Shown here: positions 8,461 to 10,538 of the stretch, in pieces
Numbering within the stretch: position 1 is the first letter of the stretch
Layout of the letters: the number at the start of each line of letters is the position of its first letter
NCBI RefSeq assembly: GCF_023016265.1
Contig: NZ_CP095412.1
Span: 3,534,001-3,598,000 of the forward strand
Reading direction: 5' to 3'
DNA length: 64,000 bases
Source: Blastococcus sp. PRF04-17
GTDB lineage: Bacteria; Actinomycetota; Actinomycetes; Mycobacteriales; Geodermatophilaceae
Notes under the pieces: generated by a model
Seen by the model: only the letters and a program-made list of their open reading frames with translations
What the model was told of the DNA's origin: nothing
The model's database searches: none
Translations under genes and position numbers: made by a program

Positions 8461-9219
8461 ATGAGGCGGACCCGCGGCGGCATCGCCTACTTCACCGGCG
8501 GCGAGGGCGACTCGCTGCTCCTGGTTCTGCACGGCCTGGGCGCGACCGCGGCCGTGTGGCGGCGGCTGCTGCCGCTGGCGGACCAGTCGTGGCCCGGACG
8601 GTGGGCCGCACCTGATCTGCGCGGACACGGCCTCTCGGTGGCCGAAGCGCCGTACGGCTACGGCACGCACGCCGGCGACATGGCCGCGCTGGTGACCGAG
8701 CTGGGTGCCTCGCGGGTGACCGTGCTCGGGCACTCCTTCGGGGGCGTCGTCGGGGCCGTGCTCGGCAGCGGCCTGTTCGGCGTCCAGGTCGAGCGGGTGG
8801 TGGCACTGGGCGTCAAGATCGACTGGACGGTCGACGAGGTGGCCCGGACCCAGGCGATGTCGGTCCGTCCCGCCCAGGTCTTCGCGACTCCGGCGGAGGC
8901 CGCCGACCGGCACCTGAAGCTGGCCGGACTCGGCGGGTTGGTGGACCCGTCGGATCCGGTGGCGCGGGCCGGTGTCCGGCGGGCGGACCGGGGCTGGATG
9001 GCCGCCTTCGACCCGCGGGCCTTCGGCGCCGTCGGCCCGTCGGTGGAGACGATCCTGTCCCGCAGCGCGGCGCCGCTCCGGCTCGCCGCCGGCAGCGGTG
9101 ACGCGATGGTGGGCATCGACGCCATGCGCCGCGTCGACCCTGGCGCGGTCGTCGTCGACGGCGCCGGCCACAACGCCCACTGGGAGGCCCCCGAGCAGGT
9201 CCTGCGGCTGCTCCACTAG
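8461..9219 (+). CDS. Alpha/beta hydrolase
   Basis: This is a 252-aa single-domain hydrolase. The oxyanion segment LVLHGLGATAAVW is followed by DLRGHGLS, the nucleophile elbow GHSFGG (Ser near residue 86), the acid loop SGDAMVGID and the catalytic His in GAGHNAHWE. It starts one base after the purC stop, so it is almost certainly co-transcribed with purB-purC, although no purine role is known. The substrate cannot be predicted. Its stop lies two bases before the left inverted repeat of the DUF559 unit, which may end its transcript. Confidence 0.88.
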   Translation: MRRTRGGIAYFTGGEGDSLLLVLHGLGATAAVWRRLLPLADQSWPGRWAAPDLRGHGLSVAEAPYGYGTHAGDMAALVTELGASRVTVLGHSFGGVVGAVLGSGLFGVQVERVVALGVKIDWTVDEVARTQAMSVRPAQVFATPAEAADRHLKLAGLGGLVDPSDPVARAGVRRADRGWMAAFDPRAFGAVGPSVETILSRSAAPLRLAAGSGDAMVGIDAMRRVDPGAVVVDGAGHNAHWEAPEQVLRLLH

Positions 9220-9221
9220 CG

Positions 9222-9280
9222 CGCCAGATCTGCACACCGGCGGCCATCAGGCCCGGATGGTCACCACTTCGCACAACTCG
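9222..9280 (+). repeat. Left terminal inverted repeat of DUF559 unit (about 59 bp)
   Basis: Bases 9222-9280 match the reverse complement of 10207-10265 over roughly 59 bp with no gaps, at about 75-80% identity. The best blocks are AGATCTGCACAC, GGCGG, CCACTTCGCA and AACTC. It begins immediately after the alpha/beta hydrolase stop and ends 56 bp before the preferred DUF559 start. No target-site duplication is evident outside the pair. Confidence 0.8.
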
Positions 9281-9336
9281 TGCGAGGCTGTGGACGACGT
9301 CGGCGAGCGACGTGCCGGCGCCTGCAAGCTGCGTCG

Positions 9337-10209
9337 GTGCCGCCTCGCCCCGTTCGCTCCCGGCTGACCGGCCCGGCTACTCGCTCCGCTGCCGCCGCCG
9401 CAGGGATCTCCGCCTCGCAGCTCCGACATCCTGACGTCGTCCGGCTCTCCCGGGACACCTACCTACCTCGGTCGCTCCTCCACGATCTGCCCACGCGTAT
9501 CTCTGCGGTACTGCTCACGGCGCCGGGGGAGGCCGTCATCAGCCACGTCACCGCGGCGGCGGTGTGGGGCTTGGCGATCCCGCTGCAGAAGGAGGACATC
9601 CGTGTCCATCTCACGGTCGCGACCGGGTCAGCACTGCGCAGCCGCGCCGACCGGAGCATCCACCGGAGCCCACTGGCCGCGTCGGAGGTCGTCGAACGGT
9701 CGGGGTTCCGGCTGACGACGCCGCAACGGACGTGGCGGGACCTCGCCGCCACGCTCGTCCCGGCGGCCCTCCTCGCCGTGACCGATCAGCTCCTCGCCCG
9801 CTGGTGCTCCGCCTCCGACGTGCGGGCGCAACTCGACCTGCGACCGTCCGGGCGTGGTTCGGCGCGTGCACGCGAGGTCCTGCCCATCGCCGACCCGCGG
9901 GCCGAATCGCCGATGGAGTCCGTGCTCCGCTGGCTCCTGCACGAAGCCGGTGTACCTGCACCCGAGCTGCAGTACGTGATCAGGACAGCGGAGGGAACGT
10001 TCCGCGCGGATCTCGCATGGCCCCGAGCCAAGCTGCTCGTCGAGTTCGACGGGGCGATCCACCGTGATGGGGACGTGTTCGTGCGCGACCTCCGCAGGCA
10101 GAACGCGCTCGTGGCGGCCGGCTGGACTGTCCTGAGGTTCAGCGGTGCGGATGTGCTGGGACGACCGCTCGATGTCGTCGCCGCGATTCTCCGGGCTCTT
10201 GGTGGATGA
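9337..10209 (+). CDS. DUF559 (Vsr-like nuclease fold) protein with AbiEi-like N-terminal region
   Basis: The roughly 290-aa protein belongs to the actinobacterial AbiEi-like/DUF559 group. The N-terminal part reads like the winged-helix/AbiEi region (SQLRHPDVVRLSRDTYLPRS, then SHVTAAAVWGL). The C-terminal 100 residues resemble the PD-(D/E)XK/Vsr fold: ESPMESVLRWLLHEAG, then FRADLAWPRAKLLVEFDG with the D...E-x-D spacing, then RRQNALVAAGWTVLRFSGADV. I prefer GTG 9337 (MPPRPVRS...), as relatives often start MPP; a GTG at 9280 is possible. Codon use is more relaxed than in the neighbouring purine genes. It is bracketed by terminal inverted repeats, separating purB-purC from purS-purQ-purL. Nuclease activity is inferred, not shown. 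Confidence 0.8.
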   Translation: MPPRPVRSRLTGPATRSAAAAAGISASQLRHPDVVRLSRDTYLPRSLLHDLPTRISAVLLTAPGEAVISHVTAAAVWGLAIPLQKEDIRVHLTVATGSALRSRADRSIHRSPLAASEVVERSGFRLTTPQRTWRDLAATLVPAALLAVTDQLLARWCSASDVRAQLDLRPSGRGSARAREVLPIADPRAESPMESVLRWLLHEAGVPAPELQYVIRTAEGTFRADLAWPRAKLLVEFDGAIHRDGDVFVRDLRRQNALVAAGWTVLRFSGADVLGRPLDVVAAILRALGG

Positions 10210-10265
10210 GTTCTGCGAAGTGGCGGCCATCAACCGCTGGTGACCGCCAGTGTGCAGATCTCGCG
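10207..10265 (-). repeat. Right terminal inverted repeat of DUF559 unit (about 59 bp)
   Basis: This is the inverted partner of 9222-9280. It starts exactly at the DUF559 stop codon, so the gene fills nearly all the space between the two repeats. Its outer end (GTGTGCAGATCTCGCG) lies about 20 bp before the purS -10 box, so it could insulate or influence purS transcription. Confidence 0.8.
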
Positions 10266-10285
10266 GGGGGCGGATCCGGCCCAGG

Positions 10286-10291
10286 TACCCT
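10286..10291 (+). promoter_or_regulatory. -10 box of a leaderless promoter for purS-purQ-purL
   Basis: TACCCT lies 7 nt before the purS GTG at 10299, and no ribosome-binding site is present. This gives the purSQL operon its own promoter just inside the right edge of the DUF559 unit. Confidence 0.55.
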
Positions 10292-10298
10292 CGCTGCT

Positions 10299-10538
10299 GT
10301 GGCACGGGTGGTCGTCGACGTCGTCCTCAAGCCGGAGATCTCCGACCCTCAGGGTCAGGCGGTGCTCGGCGCGCTCGGCCGGCTCGGCCACGACAGCGTG
10401 ACCAGCGTGCGCCAGGGCAAGCACTTCGTCCTCGACGTCGAGGGCACGCCCGACGAGGCCGAGCTGAAGCAGATCGCCGAGACCCTGCTCGCCAATCCCG
10501 TCATCGAGGACGTGGAACTCCACCTCCCCGCCGACTGA
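10299..10538 (+). CDS. purS: Phosphoribosylformylglycinamidine synthase subunit PurS
   Basis: PurS is the small structural subunit of FGAM synthase that bridges PurQ (glutaminase) and PurL. The 79-aa protein begins MARVVVDVVLKPEISDPQGQ from GTG 10299 and has the typical VLGALGRLGHDSVTSVRQGKHF and ending ETLLANPVIEDVELHLP. An upstream in-frame extension runs into the inverted repeat and is unlikely to be translated. purQ follows 21 bp downstream. Confidence 0.95.
   Translation: MARVVVDVVLKPEISDPQGQAVLGALGRLGHDSVTSVRQGKHFVLDVEGTPDEAELKQIAETLLANPVIEDVELHLPAD

Follow-up and report, generated by a model that had tools for sequence, protein, structure and literature searches.

The DUF559 unit upstream of purS

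We analyzed a 64,000-nucleotide stretch of the genome of Blastococcus sp. PRF04-17 (contig NZ_CP095412.1, positions 3,534,001 to 3,598,000; referred to as the window), in which a gene encoding a DUF559 protein is found between two long repeats just upstream of purS. The features of the locus, numbered from the first base of the window, are as follows.

9222..9279, no strand: left-hand palindrome, somewhat more degenerate than the dispersed copies
9337..10209, plus strand: DUF559 gene, with an AbiEi-like N-terminal domain and a Vsr/EDxHD-type nuclease domain; GTG start most likely
9379..9768, plus strand: AbiEi-like region (residues 34-163 of the open reading frame [ORF] numbered from 9280)
9901..10206, plus strand: nuclease domain (residues 208-309 of the ORF numbered from 9280)
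10208..10265, no strand: right palindrome of the unit, starting within the stop codon
8461..9219, plus strand: alpha/beta hydrolase gene, upstream neighbour, given for context
10299..10538, plus strand: purS, downstream neighbour, given for context

The two arms (9222-9279 and 10208-10265) are 58 nt long and 79% complementary without gaps, with a spacing of 928 nt, in agreement with an earlier prediction made from this DNA (the original prediction) of inverted repeats of about 59 bp with 75 to 80% identity. As also predicted, the left arm lies just past the upstream stop, 3 bases after the end of the hydrolase ORF at 9219. The right arm was correctly placed at the stop codon of the DUF559 gene, but it begins one base inside the TGA (10207-10209) and not exactly at the codon. 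The looser codon use claimed for this gene was evident from its GC content at third codon positions (GC3), which was 0.81, against 0.93 to 0.96 in the hydrolase gene, purS, purQ and purL. The start pattern was matched in 45 of 57 relatives, 43 of which had GTG or ATG at the corresponding position; the coding start predicted from this comparison is most likely the GTG at 9337, not 9280. The longest ORF call for purS (10206-10538) begins upstream of the right palindrome and runs through it, and the conserved start of purS is the GTG at 10299.

The protein carries no transposase domain according to Pfam, in which its match, DUF559, is an entry without a function. The nuclease domain has an EDxHD-type catalytic fold, and its closest solved structures were those of I-Bth0305I, tied with NGO0050; a Vsr-type nuclease without a recognised transposase had indeed been proposed. 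Among 36 aligned proteins, E213, D244 and H261 were invariant, and E255, D257 and D270 were nearly so. E213, D244, H261 and D270 are candidate EDxHD residues, chosen by conservation and not by residue-by-residue mapping on 3r3p. The AbiEi-like domain probably binds DNA.

A compact unit with dispersed palindromes

Each arm proved to be an imperfect palindrome in its own right. When the arms were searched against their own genome (4.59 Mb; G000), several further matches were found, often on both strands at one place. An alignment of the arms with seven other copies gave a consensus of about 57 bp that is a near-perfect palindrome, and a covariance model, R1, was built on it. R1 found at least 12 high-scoring places in G000, both arms included, 150 of 1837 candidates having been scored. 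The palindromes form strong hairpins, several of them directly 3' of stop codons; by a crude ORF call, the gaps holding 10 dispersed copies lay between tandem genes in five cases, convergent genes in three and divergent genes in two. No conserved GTAG tag was seen by eye at the palindrome foot in two palindrome alignments. A composite transposon bounded by the palindromes at G000 positions 712612 and 715657 was considered and rejected, since the genes between the two are, as we take it from their recognised names, ordinary chromosomal ones. A second DUF559 gene of this genome (G000:4567579-4568759) has a palindrome of its own, present at 31 further places in G000. One in-frame TAG occurs in the domain match of this second gene (G000:4567691-4567885; loci L013 and L026).

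We then looked at relatives. The 16 genomes of the genus contain 78 DUF559 places, 74 of which were examined (all except G005:C11, G009:C27, G008:C44 and G009:C3). These 74 sources, the window being excluded, represent 73 genes, one of which occurs twice among them. Relatives at least 53% identical to the window protein were assigned to clade A. R1 matched at one or both ends of 12 of the 13 clade-A relatives in the genus, while the 61 sources outside the clade gave no full-length R1 match at E<=0.001 and only one partial match. The exception in clade A, L123, has a palindrome pair of another type, detected without the model; R1 alone missed G007, whose palindrome is of a different type. With the window included, 12 of the 14 clade-A units of the genus had palindromes at both ends; the G014b unit had only the right one, and the G012 unit was truncated by a contig end. 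The original prediction depended on further copies of the arms near DUF559 genes, and such copies were thus found. A scan of named genomes yielded 67 loci, chiefly from Blastococcus, Geodermatophilus, Modestobacter and Trujillonella; one or two copies of the unit were found per genome, with two in at least eight of the named genomes.

To score the pairing independently of any particular palindrome, repeats common to both flanks were evaluated with reference to 330 control ORFs of the same loci, the flank windows being alike, not identical (set by the conserved protein start for DUF559 genes and by a GC3-rule ORF start for controls). The window unit scored 31.6; the 99th percentile of the controls was 17.9 and their maximum 33.8. 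This percentile was exceeded by 54 of 58 clade-A genes. DUF559 genes from outside the clade, with palindromes of different sequence, exceeded it in 46 of 65 cases. Where both ends of a clade-A gene had a strong palindrome (39 genes), the spacing was 979 to 1027 bp, and most units had a palindrome at or near the stop codon. The significant pairs of the 54 clade-A genes matched better in direct sense in 32 and in inverted sense in 21, with one tie. In the phylum, DUF559 was detected in 41 of 149 sampled genomes (E 1e-6; 70 places listed); at the 28 loci examined, 8 of the 19 genes of at least 250 amino acids (aa) had a significant pair relative to a mismatched-pair null. The gene and its two palindromes thus form a compact unit that recurs across nearly the whole clade and commonly beyond it. 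Short DUF559 genes of the phylum sample (L337, L339 and L342) adjoin CCCCTCCCTTGAGGGGAGGGG-like repeats, and one adjoins TGTTTCACGTGAAACA, presumably a parS-like sequence.

Insertion sites and palindrome types

Of 57 clade-A proteins placed on a tree, 38 belonged to units between purC/hydrolase and purS and 19 to units elsewhere. At least 11 site changes were counted by the assigned labels, or nine on merging two doubtful pairs of labels. The tree is a quick one in which 19 of the 56 inner branches are weakly supported, and it excludes the broken or partial L224, L226 and L229; L200 received its purS label from the upstream side alone. The unit at the purS site is old and mostly inherited, and no recent insertion.

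The presence of a unit, a solo palindrome or neither was surveyed at two sites, purS and ftsX-smpB, with different outcomes. The ftsX-smpB site is the most telling, as it carries a unit in either orientation, a solo palindrome or neither. The gap could be measured in 14 of the 16 genus genomes: four (G000, G002, G011 and G014) had a solo palindrome, three (G001, G004 and G009) had a short, empty gap, and seven had other sequence. A whole unit occupied it in six named loci: L175 in one orientation, and L197, L205, L207, L215 and L226, whose gene is partial, in the opposite one. A single target with occupied as well as unoccupied alleles was found only here. Elsewhere, a solo palindrome in the gap that separates an aldo-keto reductase gene from uppP was present in 3 of 14 aligned genomes and absent from 11; no clear target duplication was visible by eye at this site, the boundary being obscured by the palindromic ends. 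Roughly 3 kb farther on, past a SCO1664-like gene, 5 of 14 genomes (G000, G002, G006, G014 and G015) had a solo palindrome, of differing types. Two other sequences were noticed in these gaps: a repeat around GGGGAGCCTCCGGCCCC that fills the SCO1664-like and ftsX-smpB gaps in some Blastococcus genomes that lack a palindrome there, and a palindrome of another family (GATCATGGAGCGG...) in the ftsX-smpB gap of G015 (L374).

Palindromes of other species have a different outer stem, and both ends of one unit tend to differ together. When the left palindromes of the 39 units with two strong palindromes were each compared with all right ones, the best match was the unit's own in 20 cases and its own was among the top three in 29. 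For 63 dispersed palindromes from seven genomes, chosen among the matches listed, so that copy numbers are lower bounds, the true pairing of genomes with units gave the highest mean similarity to unit ends of all 5040 permutations. The fit was strong in G007 and G015, where the own type was best for 6 of 8 and 10 of 14 copies, partial in G002, and weak in G003, G009 and G006. In G000, nine of the sampled copies were closer to the ends of the units of two relatives and one to those of a third genome. The number of R1 strand-hits, kinship being ignored, had a median of 21 in the 13 genomes with a clade-A unit, against 5, 2 and 0 in those without.

Possible explanations and known systems

Several accounts of these palindromes can be weighed. 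The claim of a single-gene mobile unit holds in that the unit is compact, recurs and occupies several sites; its arms, however, are not classical terminal inverted repeats. A classical transposon with terminal inverted repeats of about 58 bp, which is how the original prediction read the locus, would account for the long imperfect inverted repeat and for the several genomic sites on the tree. We nevertheless regard it as very unlikely, as each end is self-palindromic, the fixed inverted orientation is missing (direct sense better in 32 of the 54 significant pairs), solo ends are dispersed, no transposase domain was recognised by Pfam, and only one or two copies were found per genome. A mutual terminator, also suggested, fits poorly, since orthologous sites may have or lack a copy and two of the 10 solo copies in G000 lie, by the crude ORF call, between divergent genes. 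More broadly, an immobile host structural element or bidirectional terminator, to which the strong hairpins and their positions after stop codons would point, is exceedingly improbable in view of these divergent gaps, the differences in presence between species and a palindrome sequence tied to a distant gene.

An operator model, in which the protein is an AbiEi-like regulator with operators duplicated on both sides of its gene and spread over the genome as a regulon, would explain the AbiEi-like domain, the symmetry suited to a dimer and the co-variation of protein and site. It is unlikely all the same, given that most units have a palindrome at or near the stop codon, that the G000 copies occupy tandem and convergent gaps more often than divergent ones, that copies come and go at orthologous sites, that units change place, and that the three invariant nuclease residues are retained in all 36 proteins. 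Alternatively, the palindromes could owe their spread to another enzyme, and DUF559 genes would tend to be caught between two of them as passengers. The palindrome types without a matching unit in some genomes speak for this, and cleavage by the DUF559 protein is itself a deduction. Against it, paired palindromes of many sequences accompany DUF559 genes and rarely the 330 control ORFs, and palindrome type co-varies with unit type. RAYT, an HUH Y1 transposase (PF01797), is the usual mover of repeats resembling repetitive extragenic palindromes (REPs). None of the 16 genus genomes yielded it, compared with 5 of 14 control genomes, and it was rejected as the mover; other mobilisers were not searched for. 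We consider passengers quite unlikely.

We favor a different explanation: the palindrome of about 57 bp is quite probably the cognate recognition element of the DUF559 fusion protein, and the family would move by cutting and copy-repair. The protein, probably dimeric, would bind palindromes and cut them; the family would be homogenised as the break is repaired on the template of another copy, and the whole gene between two palindromes would occasionally be copied into a former solo site. Because repair would draw on other copies, unit ends and solo copies would be expected to change together. This covers existing palindrome sites, not first entry into a palindrome-free site. A review describes dimeric binding of I-Bth0305I to a target of nearly 60 bp (PMC3943268). 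Taken with the homing-type fold, the failure to find RAYT in the genus and the higher R1 counts in genomes with a clade-A unit, this suggests that the DUF559 protein most likely recognises and cuts its palindrome.

Several points weigh against this explanation. Cleavage, binding and movement are inferred rather than observed. Textbook homing insertion destroys its own target, and here both flanking palindromes remain whole. The permutation and abundance tests ignore phylogeny; there are several palindrome types per genome, the own type was best for only 4 of 10 copies in G002, 2 of 7 in G003, 2 of 9 in G009 and 0 of 5 in G006, and none of the 10 sampled G000 copies best matched the degenerate ends of its own unit. 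Four of the 58 clade-A genes scored below the 99th control percentile, and three of these (L203, L219 and L226) did not reach the 95th either; in the phylum sample, shorter DUF559 genes exceeded the null as well (4 of 9), some beside unrelated repeats. Finally, the purS site lacks a unit in G001, G006, G008 and G013. The original prediction called for a search for empty sites between the hydrolase gene and purS; none of these four genomes contains a complete solo palindrome, which argues against simple decay there. An apparent half-palindrome relic was seen by eye upstream of purS in G008 (L246), where relatives have the unit.

Whether DUF559 (Vsr/EDxHD-type) nucleases form a separate mobile palindrome system, with one palindrome family per gene, spread and homogenised by cutting and copy-repair, of an origin independent of RAYT/REP and common in actinobacteria, is in our view an even call. 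If so, the DUF559 family would gain a role as palindrome-dedicated nucleases, a second enzyme unrelated to RAYT would join the REP story, and the spread and uniformity of REP-like palindromes could be tested on many natural pairs of enzyme and target that differ in specificity. No such system was described in the literature consulted on DUF559, REP/RAYT, EDxHD/Vsr-like homing and Geodermatophilaceae palindromes, in which subscription journals were little covered.

Among known systems, AbiEi antitoxins differ in that the AbiEi-like domain is here fused to a nuclease, and no AbiEii toxin gene lies beside the window gene, whose neighbours are the hydrolase gene and purS. Vsr nicks T:G mismatches in very-short-patch repair, with a partner cytosine methylase. 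Vsr mismatch endonucleases have a similar fold; the window protein adds the AbiEi-like domain, the flanking palindromes and their dispersed cognates, extras also lacking from Caulobacter VsrA, which contains DUF559. The unit resembles a REPtron in its few gene copies per genome and in flanking palindromes that also occur scattered in intergenic positions. It differs in its enzyme, a Vsr/EDxHD-type nuclease instead of an HUH/Y1 transposase (Y1_Tnp was not found here), and in palindromes of about 57 bp without a GTAG tag, whereas REPs are described as 20 to 40 bp long with such a tag (PMC8266576, PMC3733652). The EDxHD homing endonuclease I-Bth0305I is similar in its catalytic domain, among the closest solved, and in the target of nearly 60 bp given in the review. 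The unit departs from this group by the AbiEi-like N-terminal domain of its protein and by its putative targets, which are intergenic palindromes dispersed over the chromosome, with a whole copy kept on both flanks.
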